From Tildeniella nuda ZEHNDER 1965/U140 (GTDB lineage Bacteria; Cyanobacteriota; Cyanobacteriia; Leptolyngbyales; Leptolyngbyaceae): a stretch of 64,000 nucleotides of DNA. A program made the translations under genes and the position numbers. The DNA is taken from positions 124,001 through 188,000 of the forward strand of contig JAHHIG010000001.1 in the NCBI GenBank assembly GCA_019358895.1, given 5' to 3'. Positions 5,919 through 43,965 of the stretch are shown here, piece after piece; position 1 is the stretch's first letter; each line of letters opens with the position of its first letter. Below the pieces are notes generated by a model that worked only from the letters and a program-made list of their open reading frames with translations, had not been told where the DNA came from and made no database searches.

Positions 5919-6488
5919 ATGGTGGATGATCCTGACCTTTTCTGGTTTGGCTGCATGTTGACGCTAGTCTGCCTTTGCTTCACGCTCAGCCTGATCAGCA
6001 AAAACCCCAAAACATCTGCAAGCTCACACGCAACGACGATCGCGCCCCCTGTCGCTGACGCTACCGTCGATGCCCAAATCGCAGCGTTGCAGCAGCAGTG
6101 TTCGCGCCTACGTGGTGAACTACAGCAGCAAAAGGCTCAACTGCACGAAGACTTTCAGAGCCACAGCTTTGCCCAACTGCAACCGCTGCTCACTAACTAT
6201 CCCAGCGCTTGCAAAATGGCACAGGTCAAGCCCGATCTGCCTGCCCGTAATCTGGTTGCGCTTTTTAACCCGTTAGAGAATTTGCTTGAAACCTGGCATA
6301 TTGCCCCGATCGGTTCTGTCTGGGAGCAAGTGCCCTTCAACGCCCAAAACCATCAGCCTGACACAGATGATCTTGTAACCGGAGAACCTGTCTATATTCG
6401 CTTTGTTGGCTACTGCCAGGGCGATCGTATTCTCTGCCCCGCCAAAGTAAGCCGGACGTTGCCGGGAGGGATGAAAGGTGCGGAGTGA
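5919..6488 (+). CDS. Membrane-anchored GrpE-like protein, partner of the adjacent Hsp70
   Basis: The 189-residue product begins with a hydrophobic anchor (FWFGCMLTLVCLCFTLSLI, residues 9 to 27). A low-complexity linker follows, then a predicted coiled coil (AALQQQCSRLRGELQQQKAQ, about residues 57 to 76). The C-terminal part, about 100 to 180, contains PIGSVWEQVPFNAQNHQP and EPVYIRFVGYCQGDRILC. These resemble the beta domain of GrpE nucleotide-exchange factors, where a motif of the form V..V.F.P..H precedes a strand-turn-strand. Coiled coil plus beta domain, placed directly before an Hsp70-like gene, makes an exchange-factor role likely. That role is inferred from architecture and neighbourhood. 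Confidence 0.6.
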   Translation: MVDDPDLFWFGCMLTLVCLCFTLSLISKNPKTSASSHATTIAPPVADATVDAQIAALQQQCSRLRGELQQQKAQLHEDFQSHSFAQLQPLLTNYPSACKMAQVKPDLPARNLVALFNPLENLLETWHIAPIGSVWEQVPFNAQNHQPDTDDLVTGEPVYIRFVGYCQGDRILCPAKVSRTLPGGMKGAE

Positions 6489-6489
6489 G

Positions 6490-6555
6490 GGGTGAGGAGT
6501 GAGGAGTGAGGAGATGGGGAGATGGGGAGATGGGGAGATGGGGAGATGGGGGGTG
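6490..6555. repeat. G-rich microsatellite (GAGGAGT and GATGGGGA repeats)
   Basis: Two or three copies of a 7-bp GAGGAGT unit are followed by five tandem copies of GATGGGGA. The block lies between the GrpE-like stop and the Hsp70-like start. It is the type of short repeat that slips easily. A role in spacing or expression of the downstream gene is possible but not shown. Confidence 0.75.
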
Positions 6556-6615
6556 AGTTAGCCTTGACTACTGACTTCTTCTAATGACTAACAACCAACA
6601 ACTAAAAACTCCTCC

Positions 6616-8208
6616 ATGACTACGATCGCGATCGACTTTGGCACCAGCAATACGGTTGTCAGCCTTTTGGAGCCGGATACACAAACACCGAAGACGCTGA
6701 GGTTTCCAGGTCTTTCGCGGATGTTTCGGCTGACCCAGAAGTCAGGAGATGTACAAGAAATTCCGGTGGTGCCAACGCTGGTGTTTGTGGAAGATGCGGA
6801 AACCCTGATCGTGGGAGAACAGGTGCGATCGCAGCGGTTGGGATTGATGCAACCCGATCGACTCTTCAAAGCGTTCAAACGTGATCTGATTGCTGCGTTT
6901 CAGCCGCCGTCCCGTCAAATCGATGGGCAAACCTATAGCGCTGAGTCTGTTTCAGAGCAATTTTTGCAGGTCATCTGGCAACAGCTTCAGGAACAGCACA
7001 TTCAGCCGACGCAGGTGATTTTCACGGTGCCGATCGGTGCCTTTGAGAGCTATCTGGGCTGGTTTCGGGATGTGGCAACACGGCTTGGTCTACTGACTGT
7101 GCAGTTGGTGGATGAGGCAACGGCGGCGGCATTAGGTTATGCGATCCAACAGCCCGGTTCGCTAGTGCTGGTGATCGACTTTGGCGGCGGGACGCTTGAC
7201 CTGAGCCTGGTGCGAACGATCGCCGCTGCGCCTGATACAGGTATAGATGACTCTTTGGTACAACGAGCTGAAGTCTTAGCAAAGTCTGATGCGTACATTG
7301 GTGGAGAAGACATTGACCTTTGGCTTGTGGAAGACTACCTTCACCAAATCGGTTCGTCGCGCGAGGCTGTGGGTGCAGTCGGTTGGCAAAATCTGCTTGC
7401 CCTGGCTGAGCGGCTGAAGATGAGGCTTTCTGGCGTTGAAGTCGCGAAGGAAAGCTGGCTGGATGAGGAAACGTTCATGTCTTGCGAGTTTGCGCTCGAT
7501 CGCGATCGCTTCGAGTCCATTCTGGAAGCGCGGCAGCTTTTAGAGCAGTTACGACAGGCATTGGATGAGGTGTTGACGATCGCGATCAGCAAGGGCATCA
7601 GTAAAGCAGACATCGAACAAGTCTTGCTGGTGGGTGGCAGTTGTCTGATTCCTGCCGTGCAGCAGTTGGTGCTGTCGTACTTCGGGCGGCAGCGTGTGCG
7701 ACTCGACAAACCGTTTGAAGCGATCGCGCATGGTGCGCTGGCAGTGAGTCAGCTTGCAAGTATTGATGATTATCTCCGCCACAGCTATGCCATTCGCCTC
7801 TGGGAACCGTATGCGGGCACCTATACCTACGTGCCGCTGTTCCAACGGGGCAGTCGCTACCCCTGCCAGCGATCGGAGCCTCTGACGCTGCAAGTTGCCA
7901 CTAATGGACAGTCAGAAATTCGGCTGGAGATTGGCGAAGTTGCCACGATCGCCCAGGCAGAGATGACCTACGATGCTCAAGGCAGAATGACCAGCGCACC
8001 ACTGCGCCAACAGGAAACCTACCGTTCTCTAGACCGCCAGCAGGAAGCCGTTTGCATCGCTCATCTCACTCCACCTGGACACGTTGGCATCGATCGCGTC
8101 ACTGTCCAATTTGAAGTGAACGATCAGCGCATACTCATCGCTACAGTGCGAGATTTGTTGACGAACGTCTTGTTGGTCAATGGAGCCGCGATCGCAAAAC
8201 TGCGCTGA
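6616..8208 (+). CDS. Hsp70-family protein lacking the helical lid
   Basis: This 530-residue protein has the actin/Hsp70 ATPase fold: phosphate-1 loop AIDFGTSNTVVSLLEP at the N terminus, phosphate-2 loop LVIDFGGGTLDLSLV near residue 180, and the adenosine motif VLLVGGSCLIPAVQQL near 336. After the ATPase domain only about 160 residues remain. These resemble a beta substrate-binding domain (RGSRYPCQRSEPLTLQVATN) without the C-terminal lid of DnaK. It is therefore one of the noncanonical cyanobacterial Hsp70 relatives, not the housekeeping DnaK, which is about 630 residues. The 127-bp gap upstream is filled by a microsatellite, so separate transcription is possible. The client is unknown. Confidence 0.85.
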   Translation: MTTIAIDFGTSNTVVSLLEPDTQTPKTLRFPGLSRMFRLTQKSGDVQEIPVVPTLVFVEDAETLIVGEQVRSQRLGLMQPDRLFKAFKRDLIAAFQPPSRQIDGQTYSAESVSEQFLQVIWQQLQEQHIQPTQVIFTVPIGAFESYLGWFRDVATRLGLLTVQLVDEATAAALGYAIQQPGSLVLVIDFGGGTLDLSLVRTIAAAPDTGIDDSLVQRAEVLAKSDAYIGGEDIDLWLVEDYLHQIGSSREAVGAVGWQNLLALAERLKMRLSGVEVAKESWLDEETFMSCEFALDRDRFESILEARQLLEQLRQALDEVLTIAISKGISKADIEQVLLVGGSCLIPAVQQLVLSYFGRQRVRLDKPFEAIAHGALAVSQLASIDDYLRHSYAIRLWEPYAGTYTYVPLFQRGSRYPCQRSEPLTLQVATNGQSEIRLEIGEVATIAQAEMTYDAQGRMTSAPLRQQETYRSLDRQQEAVCIAHLTPPGHVGIDRVTVQFEVNDQRILIATVRDLLTNVLLVNGAAIAKLR

Positions 8209-39209: not shown

Positions 39210-39779
39210 ATGCACAGCAACTCTCAACGCAGCGCGATCGCATACTGGAGCAAACAAATAGCAGCGATCGCAAGCTGTACAGGACTGTTGACAGGGCTAT
39301 TGATGACTCATACAGCCTTGACTGCCCGTACGGTAGACGCTGCTCTCGATCGCCCTACCCTCCAAAGCAACGCGCCAGTAGCTACAAGCGTTGTTCGCCT
39401 CGAAATCCATCTCAACCGTCGTCAGGCAATTCTTTACCAGGGCAGCACACTCATCAAACGCTACCCGATTGGCACCGGACGACAAGGTTGGGAAACTCCA
39501 GTCGGAACATTTCAGGTAATGCAAATGAAGCGCAATCCTACCTGGATTAGCCCCTTCACGAATGAACGCATTGCTGCCAATGATCCGAGGAATCCTTTGC
39601 GGGGCTACTGGATTGGCTTCTGGACAAATGGCAGGAACTGGATTGGGTTTCACGGCACACTGAATGCTAGCAGCGTGGGTAAGGCAGCATCTCATGGCTG
39701 CATTCACATGTATGACCGGGACTTGCAAGACCTCTTTGCACAAGTCAGCTTAGGCACTCAGGTTAAAGTCGTACCATAG
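39210..39779 (+). CDS. L,D-transpeptidase (YkuD family), exported
   Basis: This periplasmic enzyme cross-links peptidoglycan or attaches lipoprotein at meso-diaminopimelate. The 189-residue protein has an N-terminal hydrophobic segment (AAIASCTGLLTGLLMTHTAL, residues 13 to 32) as signal peptide or anchor. From residue 63 the YkuD domain runs: LEIHLNRRQAILYQGSTLIK, GRQGWETPVGTFQVMQMKRN, and the active-site motif with histidine and cysteine, GFHGTLNASSVGKAASHGCI followed by HM. The catalytic cysteine is near residue 171. There is no peptidoglycan-binding domain. The gene is divergent from purB with its own upstream region. Confidence 0.92.
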   Translation: MHSNSQRSAIAYWSKQIAAIASCTGLLTGLLMTHTALTARTVDAALDRPTLQSNAPVATSVVRLEIHLNRRQAILYQGSTLIKRYPIGTGRQGWETPVGTFQVMQMKRNPTWISPFTNERIAANDPRNPLRGYWIGFWTNGRNWIGFHGTLNASSVGKAASHGCIHMYDRDLQDLFAQVSLGTQVKVVP

Positions 39780-39922
39780 GATCGCTTAGCCGTGGTGAAC
39801 CACCATTCTCCTTGCTGAAAAGCGCGTCGCTAAAGTATCTGAAAGGCTCTCAAATATTGAACGACAGCCTTGCTTTCAACCATTGTCGTTAAAGCCGATG
39901 GAGTCTTAGGAAGAGCGTATAG

Positions 39923-40195
39923 ATGAATATAGTCAAAGGGTTACTGGGGCTGGGGTTGCTGGCGATCGTCATTTATGCAGGTTTCGCCAAACTCCCCTTG
40001 TGGAGCTTGCCACTTTTAGCCCTACTGTTCACCGCCGCTTATATCCACGGCAAATGATACCTGTGGCGAGACCTGTTTCAACAACGAAAGCTCAAACTCT
40101 ATCAATCCCTGCTCATTACCTATTTGATTCAAGTCGTTGTCGTGGGTCTCTTCTATTTGCTTGGTAGCGAAGTGGCACACTTGTTCGATCGGTGA
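39923..40195 (+). pseudogene. Small membrane protein gene interrupted by an in-frame TGA
   Basis: From the ATG at 39923 the frame encodes 44 residues (MNIVKGLLGLGLLAIVIYAG and so on), with two hydrophobic segments, and stops at TGA 40055-40057. In the same frame, without gap, 45 more sense codons follow (YLWRDLFQQRKLKLYQSLLI with a third hydrophobic segment VVVVGLFYLLG) to TGA at 40193. Read through, it is a coherent 90-residue three-helix membrane protein, and TGA may replace a TGG tryptophan. Either the gene is disabled by one substitution, the base is a sequencing error, or two short peptides are made. I do not recognise the family. Confidence 0.6.
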
Positions 40196-40354
40196 TCATC
40201 TTCTCACTCAATCTTCGTTGAACTAGAAACGGCTGAGAGTTTGTTAAGGGCATTAATCTCAATCGATTAGCAGAATGTGCCGCGATCTAATCTAGATTTC
40301 AGGTAGTAAAAACATTAAGAAGCTTCACGCATAAACTAGCCTTGGCGCTATCAG

Positions 40355-41119
40355 TTATGCTGCCAACATTTGTCTAAACTCATCAAACCCAATATCGTAG
40401 ATTGCCTGCACATTTTCATGTAAGGCAAGAAGTACATTCATCATACTAGGGTATATATGTACTGTATAGGACACTGGGTAACTGAAATCGAGCTTCCTCA
40501 CTTGATCAAGAAAATCATTAGCATTAGATAGATCATGTTCTACGGTTTTTATAGTAGAACCAATCGAATATGGAAAAGATTGATGGAGATTAATATTGTT
40601 AAACCTATCAGAGTAAAATTTTAATACCTTTTTCAACACATTGTTCTTTACACGAACACTTCTATCTTGATCAATTAGCACATAAGCTTGCAGTTGTAGA
40701 ATTTGAGAGAAACTATAAATTTTAATACGTTTCTTACCTCCGCCTTTTTCTAAAAAAGGTACAACCATTTTTTCTTGTTCTAAGTAGCGCAATTGCTTGA
40801 AGCTAATTCTTGTTAGTTTACGAGCTGTATTTCTGTCAAATTTGTCATCGATATTGAACGCAGTTTGGCGACCTTTTGAGTCTGATATAGAAACATCTCC
40901 GAGGCTAACGTCAGGGATTGGTTGATAAACTTCCCAATGCAGTAATTCATGCTGTTTTTGTCGAGCTTCCTCCCAAGAACTAGCCTCAATAATGCTAACG
41001 AGCTTGGCATCTTCATCTAGGAAAGCTCGAGCACTTTCATTAGTCGATGGAAAAAAGTCATAGCTACCATCGCCATTAACCCATAATTCGTAAGTTACCT
41101 GCTCTGCAATGGAAGTCAT
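40355..41119 (-). CDS. AT-rich gene for a protein with a central MerR-like HTH
   Basis: The function is unknown. The start at 41119 (MTSIAEQVTYELWVNGDGSY) gives 254 residues. Residues 1 to 75 look like a small alpha/beta domain. Residues 105 to 150 contain KLTRISFKQLRYLEQEKMVV, KKRIKIYSFSQILQLQAYVL, the pattern of a MerR-type winged helix-turn-helix in which the recognition helix is followed by a wing. Residues 170 to 254 are helical, with VLLALHENVQAIYDIGFDEF at the end. The gene and its upstream partner are noticeably richer in A and T than their neighbours, which suggests recent transfer. The pair is probably one operon, gap 10 bp. A regulator of the pair is a reasonable guess. Confidence 0.6.
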   Translation of the reverse strand: MTSIAEQVTYELWVNGDGSYDFFPSTNESARAFLDEDAKLVSIIEASSWEEARQKQHELLHWEVYQPIPDVSLGDVSISDSKGRQTAFNIDDKFDRNTARKLTRISFKQLRYLEQEKMVVPFLEKGGGKKRIKIYSFSQILQLQAYVLIDQDRSVRVKNNVLKKVLKFYSDRFNNINLHQSFPYSIGSTIKTVEHDLSNANDFLDQVRKLDFSYPVSYTVHIYPSMMNVLLALHENVQAIYDIGFDEFRQMLAA

Positions 41120-41129
41120 ACAACAGCTA

Positions 41130-41459
41130 TTATTTAGAGTCTGGTACAAAGGCTCTACCCGTAATTACCTCTATATCAAGCCGTATGTTAGAACGCTCTC
41201 TTGAACGGTTTGGGAAAGTTTTGCTGACTGGTGCATCAACACCACCTGCCCTTGCCACACGATCTATATAATCTCTTACCTGCCGAAATGCCTCCTCCCG
41301 CCCCTCTTTTTCCTTTGAAGTAAGACCTCCCTCCAGTGTATCTACTTTTTGTTGTCCTTCATCTCTGGTAAGCGGAGTCTTCTGTGCCCAAGGACAAGAC
41401 TTTTCTACTCCACCCCCCTGAGCTTGTACTCGCCCTCTGTGAGCAGTTCCTCTTTCCAT
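41130..41459 (-). CDS. Conserved-looking small protein of unknown function
   Basis: The 109-residue product starts MERGTAHRGRVQAQGGGVEK and contains CPWAQKTPLTRDEGQQKVD (near residue 22), AFRQVRDYIDRVARAGGVDA (about 58 to 77), and a C-terminal NIRLDIEVITGRAFV beta pair. The GTAHRGRVQAQGGG and GGVDAPVSKTFP pieces look like a conserved family that I believe occurs in other cyanobacteria, but I cannot name its function. The gene precedes the HTH protein gene by 10 bp. The two form an AT-rich block between the broken membrane-protein gene and the duplicated dnaN tail. A possibility is a toxin-antitoxin or modification pair; nothing in the sequence proves it. Confidence 0.55.
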   Translation of the reverse strand: MERGTAHRGRVQAQGGGVEKSCPWAQKTPLTRDEGQQKVDTLEGGLTSKEKEGREEAFRQVRDYIDRVARAGGVDAPVSKTFPNRSRERSNIRLDIEVITGRAFVPDSK

Positions 41460-41549: not shown

Positions 41550-41654
41550 TTACGATCGCACCTGCACAGGCATCACGAGGTAAGTCATTTTGATGCTACC
41601 GAGAGGAGTGACGATCGCCGGACTCATGACAGTATTGAGCTGAATCTGAATCTC
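41550..41654 (-). pseudogene. Duplicated 3' end of dnaN
   Basis: Reverse translation gives 34 residues followed by TAA: EIQIQLNTVMSPAIVTPLGS and then IKMTYLVMPVQVRS. The real dnaN at 42258-43433 ends with the same residues except two (AT in place of VM). At DNA level about 82 percent of the 105 bp match the dnaN end at 42258-42362. Homology stops exactly at the TGA of the adjacent Uma2 gene. The fragment has no start or promoter and is a remnant; most differences are silent, which suggests a related dnaN from another strain as source of one copy. Confidence 0.85.
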
Positions 41655-42218
41655 TCATTCAGGCAATGCCAGCCAGTTGAAGACATCCGTTGCGGAGACG
41701 ACCAGATCGAGACCGTTCAGCATCGGTAGGGACTCCGTTCCCTGGTACAGCTTCACCCGCGACTCTGGAAAAATTGCTAGGACACTCTCATTCTCAGGAT
41801 CAAGCAACCAACCAAGTGACGTGCCATGTTCCACACAATGCAGCAGATTGGCTAGCACCTTCGTCTGAGACTGCTCTGGGGAAAGAATTTCAATCGCCCA
41901 ATCCGGGTGAAGCTCAAAGCGATTTGCCACTCTACCCGATGCGGTACGAGGAATCCGCTGCCACCGAAACACAGACACATCCGGCACAATCGCCGCTCCA
42001 CCAAATACACAGCGTAACTCTGAGAAGGCTTTTGCTATTCGCTGAGGTTCTGCAACCCGATCAATTACCTTACAAAGTTCAACTTGTAGTGTGCTGTGTT
42101 CTCCCTGGGGCATGGGCTTCTGTGTCACTTGACCGTTGATAAATTCGCTGGCAGGATTGGTTTCTGGCAGTTGCAGAAACGCATCCAGCGTTAACGGTTG
42201 GGTTGGCGTTTGAACCAT
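41655..42218 (-). CDS. Uma2-family putative endonuclease between dnaN tails
   Basis: The 187-residue product starts MVQTPTQPLTLDAFLQLPET and has a Uma2 core: AAIVPDVSVFRW near residue 74, then HPDWAIEILSPEQSQTKVLA near 103, and LLHCVEHGTSLGWLLDPE near 124. The pattern D-x(n)-E-x-L with a later lysine fits PD-(D/E)XK. It is one of three divergent Uma2 genes here. Its stop codon abuts a duplicated dnaN tail, and its start lies 40 bp from the true dnaN stop, so the gene sits between two direct copies of 105 bp. This could have come by insertion or by recombination with foreign DNA carrying both genes. Confidence 0.88.
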   Translation of the reverse strand: MVQTPTQPLTLDAFLQLPETNPASEFINGQVTQKPMPQGEHSTLQVELCKVIDRVAEPQRIAKAFSELRCVFGGAAIVPDVSVFRWQRIPRTASGRVANRFELHPDWAIEILSPEQSQTKVLANLLHCVEHGTSLGWLLDPENESVLAIFPESRVKLYQGTESLPMLNGLDLVVSATDVFNWLALPE

Positions 42219-42257
42219 AGACCCTCCTTTGTGATCTCAGCACCTTCCCTTCTGATT

Positions 42258-43433
42258 TTAGCTACGCACCTGGACGGGCATCACGAGGTAGGTCATTTTG
42301 ATGCTGCCGAGAGGAGTGACGATCGCCGGACTTGTTGCCGTATTCAACTGGATTTGGATTTCGGTGGTGGCGATCGTCTTCAAACCATCCATCAGGTACT
42401 TCACGTTAAACGCTACATCCAGGTCATCCCCTGAAATTTGGGCGGGGATGGTTTCTTTGCCGCTACCCACATCCTGAGCATCTACCGAAAGCGTTAGCAA
42501 CTGGTTGGCGCTATCAAGAGTCAGCTTGACAATATTGTTTTTCTGATCCGCCAGCACTGCAATCCGTTCCAGGGCACTTAGCAAGAGTCGTCGTTCAGCC
42601 GTAATCTGGCGAGAGAATTGACGCGGTATCAGTTGATGATAGTTGGGGTACTGCCCTTCTAAAAGGCGGCTGGTGAGCCGTTGATCCGTCCATTCAAAGA
42701 CAACCTGGCTATGGTCAAAGTGTACGGCAACATCACTGCCCGTTTGCCGCTCCAGCATTTTCGCTAACTCTTGCAGCGCCTTGGCGGGGATAGTCACATC
42801 CAAGCCTTTTTCTAATGCGCTGGGCTTTGCTCCACTTTCAGCAGCCTCTGCATTTAAAGTTTGAACCACCGTCAAACGATGCCCATCCGTTGCGGCAAAC
42901 TCCAAGCCATCAGGTTGCATGGTCAGGTGAACGCCTGTTAGCACTTGCTTGGTTTCGTCACTGCTGGCAGAAAACAAGGAACTCCGCAAACCTTCAATTA
43001 AGCTCTCTACTGAGAGATGTGCCACTTCGCCGCCTTCGACCACTGGCAGTTCGGGAAACTCCTCGGCTCCCATACCGCGCACCTGGTAGCGTCCCGAAGC
43101 GCAGGTAAGCGTGGTTAAGAAATTGGTGTCCGTGGTGCCAGCGGCTTCATCGTTGCCATCCTCAAGGGTGATGTCGCCTTCTGGCAAACGCGAGACGATA
43201 TCGGTCAGCAGTTTGGCAGGTAGGGTCAGCTTGCCACCTGTGGATACGTCGGCTGGAAAACTCGTCTGAATGCCGAGACTGAGATCAAAGGCGCTGAGCT
43301 TGATTTGCTGTAGTTCTTCATCAGCAACCAGGAGGATGTTTGCCAGTACGGGATGGCTCGGACGTGATGAGACGGCACGGCTGACCAGTGAGAGATTAGC
43401 GCTGAGGCTGTTTTGGGAGCAAACCAGTTTCAT
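42258..43433 (-). CDS. dnaN: DNA polymerase III sliding clamp, beta subunit DnaN
   Basis: DnaN forms a ring around DNA that tethers the replicative polymerase. The 391-residue protein begins MKLVCSQNSLSANLSLVSRA and has three similar domains; the conserved FPELPVVEG element lies near residue 124, GVHLTMQPDGLEFAATDGHR near 167, and SALERIAVLADQKNNIVKLT near 289. The C-terminal end IVTPLGSIKMTYLVMPVQVRS includes the polymerase- and loader-binding pocket residues typical of clamps (M-P-x-R/V). The gene lies next to a cluster of DnaA boxes, as in cyanobacterial chromosome origins. Its 3' end is duplicated downstream at 41550. Confidence 0.97.
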   Translation of the reverse strand: MKLVCSQNSLSANLSLVSRAVSSRPSHPVLANILLVADEELQQIKLSAFDLSLGIQTSFPADVSTGGKLTLPAKLLTDIVSRLPEGDITLEDGNDEAAGTTDTNFLTTLTCASGRYQVRGMGAEEFPELPVVEGGEVAHLSVESLIEGLRSSLFSASSDETKQVLTGVHLTMQPDGLEFAATDGHRLTVVQTLNAEAAESGAKPSALEKGLDVTIPAKALQELAKMLERQTGSDVAVHFDHSQVVFEWTDQRLTSRLLEGQYPNYHQLIPRQFSRQITAERRLLLSALERIAVLADQKNNIVKLTLDSANQLLTLSVDAQDVGSGKETIPAQISGDDLDVAFNVKYLMDGLKTIATTEIQIQLNTATSPAIVTPLGSIKMTYLVMPVQVRS

Positions 43434-43674: not shown

Positions 43675-43965
43675 TAGAGCCTGTGGAAAATGTGGAGAAC
43701 CGTATGAAGTACGACTGGTCAATTCTTTGAGATGGCTTTAAACCTGTGGAAAACCTGTGGAAAACTGGGCGATCTTTTCACAGAGTATTTATACTCATTA
43801 AGCTTATCCACGATCGTGGCGGGTTTTGTACCGCTTTTCCACATGCTTTTCCACAGAAAAGTTTAAGCTTTTCCACATGGCTGCGATCGCTTTACATTTC
43901 GCAACAAAATTTCGTCATAAAAATTTGGAGTCGCTCAAAAAATAGTCTGACTTCTCCACACCCCC
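43675..43965. other. Probable chromosome replication origin (oriC) with DnaA boxes
   Basis: At least seven DnaA-box sequences stand in about 200 bp: TGTGGAAAA at 43682, 43745 and 43756; TTATCCACG at 43804; TTTTCCACA at 43835, 43847 and 43869. Weaker ones lie at 43691 (TGTGGAGAA) and 43952 (TTCTCCACA). Cyanobacterial DnaA boxes are commonly TTTTCCACA, and the origin often lies next to dnaN. AT-rich sequence near 43620-43670 and 43905-43945 could be the unwinding element. The site is between dnaN and the AI-2E permease gene, with no coding sequence from 43434 to 44056. Confidence 0.85.

Follow-up and report, generated by a model that had tools for sequence, protein, structure and literature searches.

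A uma2 gene between an intact dnaN and a second dnaN 3' end in Tildeniella nuda: possible import by recombination

Results and Discussion

Layout of the locus

The window analysed here is a stretch of 64,000 nucleotides on contig C9 of the Tildeniella nuda genome (G000). Within it, an intact dnaN is followed by a uma2 gene and then by a spare copy of the dnaN 3' end, beyond which lie two open reading frames and an L,D-transpeptidase-type gene, ldt (Table 1). Two genomes of the same genus, G038 and G039, recur in the comparisons; the latter is Oscillatoriales cyanobacterium Centralia_MAG_596 (JAJPKC010000612.1), whose dnaN locus is L061 among the loci discussed below.

Table 1. Features of the dnaN–ldt region, in window coordinates.
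Feature	Position	Strand	Basis
dnaN, intact, 391 aa; body of the ordinary same-genus type	42258..43433	-	Pfam, comparison with relatives
dnaN, last ~18 codons, of G039 type (8/8 informative sites)	42258..42312	-	site comparison
39-bp gap from dnaN stop to uma2 start, alignable to G039	42219..42257	-	alignment
uma2, 187 aa, PF05685; 85% identity to G039 homologue	41655..42218	-	Pfam, comparison
Junction: TGAGA common to G000 and G039, then dnaN codon 358 in G000	41653..41657	-	alignment
Spare dnaN 3' end: codons 358-391 and stop, 105 bp	41550..41654	-	alignment
ORF109, 109 aa, no Pfam match	41130..41459	-	ORF list, Pfam
ORF264, 264 aa, no Pfam match	40355..41149	-	ORF list, Pfam
Stretch common to G038, between the variable slot and ldt	39912..40311		comparison
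ldt, L,D-transpeptidase-type gene (YkuD domain); flank common to G038 and G039	39210..39779	+	Pfam, comparison

The Uma2 product matches PF05685 with E=1.8e-28 and 99.6 bits, against a curated cut-off of 27, and a solved structure described as 'Uncharacterized protein' (3ot2_A) matches its residues 1-183 with E=3e-66. In an alignment of the same subfamily, D80 is kept in 150 and E110 in 148 of 151 relatives; we take these two to be putative catalytic residues.

Uma2 and the gap behind dnaN, some 0.6 kb by the ORF list and Pfam, are all that lies between the two dnaN tails. The initial annotation had offered, as one possibility, an element that integrates at the end of dnaN and restores it. For such an element inserted by an integrase, the segment does lie between direct copies of one gene's end, but Uma2 is its only coding content, neither the ORF list nor Pfam places an integrase gene between the repeats, and the copies are 81% identical where identical cores would be expected. 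We therefore rejected the integrase element as very improbable.

ORF109 matched none of the 41 remaining family genomes. ORF264 has weak relatives in three of these 41, all on contigs without that genome's dnaN, and no match in the plasmid collection searched. No other case of dnaN followed by either ORF was found in the 42 genomes. The stretch between the slot and ldt is a relative of a 90-aa ORF of G038 without a Pfam match; by reading, it is interrupted by TGA in G000.

On the other side of dnaN, six exact TTTTCCACA sites occupy 196 bp at 43682-43877, approximately 250-445 bp upstream of the dnaN start, the expected count being 0.69 in the whole window. We take TTTTCCACA to be a DnaA-box-like site, and the cluster is a probable replication origin on this sequence evidence; GC skew in 4-kb windows gave no clear switch.

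Descent of the two dnaN ends

The second dnaN end had been described in the initial annotation as 105 bp long, in the same orientation, inclusive of the stop codon, diverged by about 18% and changed at two of 34 residues. Alignment confirmed each of these points, with divergence measured at 19 of 102 nt (18.6%). Twelve codons differ silently and two non-silently, and when 19 random changes were simulated on the intact tail, none of 20,000 runs gave two or fewer amino-acid changes. A blastn comparison between the two flanks of uma2 returned E ~2e-27, and the homology of the spare tail begins one base past the Uma2 stop (GAA TGA / GAG ATT CAG).

Because the differences are mostly silent, the spare tail stems from another dnaN lineage, and the two tails once served as working dnaN ends in different lineages. 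This silent pattern rules out a recent dnaN duplication and bears out the foreign origin that had been proposed instead. An assembly duplicate is an unlikely source, given that the copies are 18% diverged.

The dnaN–ldt slot in related genomes

A second tail adjoining dnaN was found in G000 only, among the 42 genomes of the family set, which is identical to the order set; G004 gave no dnaN match in this family search and G035 gave distant dnaN relatives only. Across the class, the dnaN-end query matched 373 of 388 genomes, and by table reading 12 of them contained two matches: G000, G036 and ten which were rechecked. G036 carries a second full-length dnaN on another contig. In nine of the ten rechecked genomes both matches lie in open frames of at least 378 aa and were read as paralogues, while the second match of the tenth (G376) lies one base from the locus end and was read as a contig edge. 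The spare-tail arrangement was hence seen in one of 373 genomes at the sensitivity of that search.

An empty site was looked for in related genomes, as the initial annotation had proposed. G034, G037 and G038 possess a single dnaN end with no uma2 behind it, and other sequence in its place; G039, on the other hand, has uma2 without a second tail, in the order dnaN-uma2-ldt-purB with nothing annotated between uma2 and ldt. The G036 contig ends too soon behind dnaN to display the content of the slot. Since this content differs between genomes of the same genus, the slot between dnaN and ldt is best read as a variable one. Insertion of uma2 into an ancestral empty site as the sole change was considered and rejected, both on account of G039 and because the right side of the slot differs between genomes too.

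A uma2 gene was located 40-88 bp behind dnaN in three of 80 fetched relatives, namely L061, L062 (Oculatellaceae Prado106) and L074 (PMM_0085). For L062, identity at the protein level is 79% for Uma2 as opposed to 67% for dnaN, so that uma2 seems, from these identities, to be younger than the dnaN split. Separately, L272 (G198) harbors a frameshifted Uma2 at 6283-6878, approximately 3 kb behind dnaN and 79% identical over the matched part, possibly an older displaced copy.

A dnaN end and uma2 shared with G039

Over the whole of dnaN, G039 is the most distant of the five same-genus genomes, with a nucleotide identity of 0.777 to G000 versus 0.803-0.839 for the others. In the final 102 nt no other genome comes closer, with 94.1% for G039 versus 83.3-88.2% for G036, G037 and G038; the dnaN end of G034 is one codon longer and misaligned over these 102 nt, its identity being 0.838 over codons 357-391. 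In those final 102 nt of dnaN the window score is 0.029, and none of the 330 windows preceding codon 357 exceeds 0.000. All eight informative sites between +53 and the dnaN end are G039-like, as compared with three of 20 in the preceding ~250 bp. The intact dnaN is in this sense a chimera, with its last ~18 codons resembling G039 and its body not.

The likeness continues into uma2. Four-fold sites are identical between G000 and G039 at 55 of 81 positions in uma2, at 66 of 166 in dnaN codons 1-373 (Fisher p=4e-5 versus uma2) and at 117 of 259 in purB and ldt (p=4e-4 versus uma2). Homology with G039 stops at the TGAGA past the uma2 stop, where the dnaN codons of G000 start. On these comparisons uma2, together with the gap and the final ~18 codons of dnaN, has a younger common ancestor than the surrounding DNA and, because uma2 and those codons are less diverged between the two genomes than the rest of dnaN, purB and ldt, the stretch appears to have moved horizontally through the dnaN end. 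Together with the uma2 genes directly 3' of dnaN in L062 and L074, this G039-like unit supports the earlier suggestion of recombination with foreign DNA that carried a dnaN end and Uma2. We infer a crossover just upstream of the last ~18 codons. A foreign dnaN end beginning where the spare tail begins was considered and rejected, the crossover lying ~50 bp further in.

Upstream of this crossover, the spare tail and the intact dnaN differ at eight of the ten codons 358-367. A single event displacing the recipient's own tail would leave these codons equal; as they differ from the intact gene where it is of ordinary type, the spare tail is apparently not simply the recipient's old dnaN end. Either at least two events would be needed, or the spare tail would have arrived with the ORFs on its right.

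The latter possibility amounts to a distinct explanation, in which a dnaN-uma2 pair was already present and was then joined, at its downstream end, to a foreign fragment starting inside another strain's dnaN and continuing through ORF109 and ORF264 and perhaps into the right flank. It accords with the order in G039, where uma2 is followed by ldt with nothing annotated between, with the silent divergence of the spare tail from the intact gene, and with the occurrence of ORF109 and ORF264 behind no other dnaN in 42 genomes. Against this, no donor was found, uma2 itself is less diverged than its surroundings, and the stretch at the ldt side of the slot, common to G000 and G038, was not found in G039, so that G039 does not simply represent the ancestral state. 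We consider arrival from the right unlikely.

Displaced gene ends at other Uma2 loci

Gene ends displaced around uma2 were also encountered at hsdM. In L076 (Coleofasciculus LEGE 07092), an hsdM-type end precedes uma2, behind which this end is repeated twice, first as a 281-bp copy (93%) and then as an older one, before hsdS; the hsdM of L076 is itself interrupted and was named via L136, while hsdS was named by Pfam. An empty-site relative, L332 (G089), has hsdM DNA 93-96% identical and running directly into an hsdS-like gene. Identity to L332 is 93% for the intact hsdM end of L076 and 89% for its displaced tail. Orphan hsdM ends of ~11-23 codons occur 3-30 bp before uma2 in L073, L077, L105, L129 and L270. 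Of these five loci only L073 has an hsdS nearby; none was found in L105 (5 kb on each side), L270 (1.5 kb) or L077 (0.3 + 2.1 kb), nor in L129 within just 0.2 kb behind uma2. L083, read by eye only, has an hsdM-like end before uma2 and a short hsdM-like piece (IAPADDD) behind it.

A comparable series concerns a TPR-CHAT gene before hisG in genomes of family f23, the named members of which are Pseudanabaenaceae. The order is CHAT-uma2-hisG in L261 and CHAT-uma2-tail-hisG in L328, and CHAT tail remnants occur at one or both sides of uma2, partly in other places, in L312, L321, L324 and, weakly, L307 (tail score 32). In L316, L322, L326 and L329 a CHAT-type gene end is followed by a large and a small Uma2, the large one confirmed by Pfam in L316 and L326; these four are paralogue cassettes behind one host gene.

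The scar is not specific to the nuclease gene. L345 (G123) has, at 1483-1785, an hsdM tail before hsdS and ~2.2 kb behind a full hsdM, and between the two are a HepT-like gene and ORFs which look transposase-like by eye, with no Uma2. In L289 and L335 (G033), hsdM-uma2 is followed by a PIN gene, a second Uma2-type tail and hsdS. Orphan hsdM tails of ~80 codons were additionally observed in L343 and L344 (G232 and G185) beside small genes which are toxin-antitoxin-like by eye; neither genome gave a full hsdM match at E 1e-20.

To what extent such arrangements recur was gauged on 151 distinct loci (80 plus 71 more) whose Uma2 belongs to the same subfamily, and on G000 itself, where all of the 71 Uma2 matches except a fragment on contig C8 were tested, making 70. 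In a stop-anchored comparison, the end of the upstream gene, present in 136 of the 151 loci, was matched with everything behind Uma2. Scores of at least 40 were reached in four of the 151: L076 (hsdM), L242 (the present dnaN case), L328 (CHAT gene) and L110, whose match is probably due to chance. In G000 they were reached in two of 70, the dnaN case and L209, which involves neighbouring paralogues, and among 421 other genes used as controls again in two, L330, by reading a tandem duplication, and L289, with its Uma2-type tails around the PIN gene. With the upstream-gene requirement dropped, ten of 151 loci scored at least 40 (the 99th percentile of 3020 mispairings was 34), and these include intergenic repeats (L099, L109, L279 and L319), L110 and L258 besides gene ends. 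The repeats in L099, L109, L279 and L319 are short, direct and intergenic; they flank Uma2 and by reading are not gene ends. A nucleotide test selected five of 150 Uma2 loci (L013, L029, L076, L099 and L204), two of them gene ends, and two of 217 controls, both of which proved to be Uma2 genes (the window's own and L123), so this control set was unclean. No rule that would cover all Uma2 genes was found in these tests.

When the tails themselves were searched for, a dnaN (four), hsdM (nine) or CHAT (six) end was found near Uma2 in 19 of 151 loci as a whole gene, an orphan tail or a displaced copy, the tails having been chosen after they had been seen beside Uma2. Near flanks produced 24 matches of at least 32 in these 19 loci, the antisense maximum being 31, and distant windows four matches in 523, one of which is the real dnaN of L272 and three of which score 32-35. 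In a quick tree of Uma2, a single 17-row clade with a support of 97 holds the dnaN-linked genes; the hsdM-linked genes require two changes and may be of one origin. Taking the dnaN, hsdM and CHAT labels together, eight of 200 shuffles were as low.

These observations bear on a further explanation, namely that Uma2 is a free-standing homing element which substitutes a 3' end of its own for that of the host gene, in the manner of WHO at FBA1 in yeasts. The putative nuclease would cut the gene near its end in an element-free genome, and repair would copy in a resistant 3' end along with uma2, leaving the old end downstream as a fragment. The chimeric dnaN end fits such a process, as do the 19 loci, the orphan hsdM tails before Uma2 with no hsdS in the stretch searched (L270, L105, L077 and L129) and the CHAT series, in which remnants of the tail precede, separate and follow Uma2 genes. 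So does the anatomy of WHO elements, which likewise comprises an intact chimeric host gene, a nuclease gene, a displaced fragment, clusters and copies elsewhere (PMC7282813). Several points weigh against homing. Firstly, neither at dnaN nor in L076 (93% vs 89% to L332) can the fragment behind Uma2 be clearly equated with the former end of the recipient's gene. Secondly, HepT-like and PIN genes bear the same scar. Thirdly, the search suggested in the initial annotation, for further Uma2 genes that abut pieces of their neighbours, succeeded in other genomes, at hsdM and the CHAT gene, and failed in G000, where none of the other 69 tested loci displays the scar if L209 is taken as neighbouring paralogues. 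Finally, orphan tails could also have remained after host genes were deleted, or have been carried along as 5' regions, and the counted tails were chosen after being seen. We therefore regard homing as a tentative and rather doubtful explanation.

Import through the dnaN end

We favour import by recombination with an illegitimate second junction, and assign it a probability of about one half on the strength of the sequence comparisons. The slot directly behind dnaN would be a variable site at which genes are gained and lost through horizontal recombination. A uma2 seated behind dnaN in a relative, as in G039, would have passed between lineages as a unit with the short gap and the final ~18 codons of dnaN. 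Homologous exchange within dnaN would have kept that gene intact. At the opposite junction, perhaps through a short match (GAGA), the uma2 stop would have become linked to the 3' end of another dnaN with a separate history, and these 105 bp would have stayed behind as a scar. We infer the direction of the transfer, the microhomology step and a break made without Uma2 activity; the match of a few base pairs at the junction is weak evidence for microhomology joining.

The displaced tails around genes other than Uma2 suggest a general import process, and import is put first because a general process acting via host ends, with an illegitimate junction, would explain the HepT-like and PIN scars as well. 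As judged from the quick tree, the clustering of Uma2 genes linked to the same host end exceeds what blind import would predict.

Comparison with known systems

Homology-facilitated illegitimate recombination, known from natural transformation, proceeds with one homologous and one illegitimate side. Such a process would account for an intact gene next to a foreign segment; in the present case the inferred crossover falls within the dnaN end, and a few base pairs match at the other junction. It gives no reason for related Uma2 genes to remain with a single host gene end.

Homing endonuclease genes of phages likewise lie near essential genes and at the edges of exchanged DNA (PMC10448857). They are, however, phage genes of other nuclease families, and the available part of that source names no displaced host 3' ends (PMC10448857).

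Uma2, or DUF820, has been described as a likely solo toxin which mostly forms cassettes of paralogues (PMC2701414), and expansions of the family have been reported (PMC9403480). The cyanobacterial genes studied here share this abundance and the paralogue cassettes, while movement with host gene ends is undescribed in the accessible portions of both sources (PMC2701414, PMC9403480). No description of Uma2 genes carrying host gene ends was found among the openly licensed papers searched, and other papers in print may contain one.

The closest described system is the WHO element of the yeasts Torulaspora and Lachancea, with which the anatomy agrees in most points. Its nuclease gene lies behind a chimeric FBA1, accompanied by displaced 3' fragments, clusters and copies elsewhere, and cleavage has been demonstrated (PMC7282813). 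Both systems place a known or predicted nuclease gene directly 3' of an essential host gene, whose 3' end and body differ in descent, have a spare fragment behind the nuclease gene (PMC7282813), and recur at the same host end (here dnaN in L061, L062 and L074 of 80 loci, hsdM and the CHAT gene). They differ in that WHO, for which cleavage has been shown, is a yeast protein of intein-zinc-finger type (PMC7282813) and Uma2 a bacterial family of predicted nucleases, and in that the spare dnaN tail, which departs from the intact gene at eight of codons 358-367, where the latter is of ordinary type, is not clearly the recipient's. Cyanobacterial Uma2 might, tentatively, constitute a free-standing WHO-like homing class, each lineage tied to one host 3' end (dnaN, hsdM or a CHAT gene), cutting alleles that lack it, bringing a resistant end and leaving old ends behind. 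If true, such homing would explain the dozens of Uma2 genes per cyanobacterium, many of them in cassettes, and travel with host ends would give one account of why these genes are so numerous, why they form cassettes and why an essential gene has a chimeric end. Even with passive import, tail scars would mark gene entry points, and Uma2 genes beside fragments of host ends may show how a very common gene family spreads.
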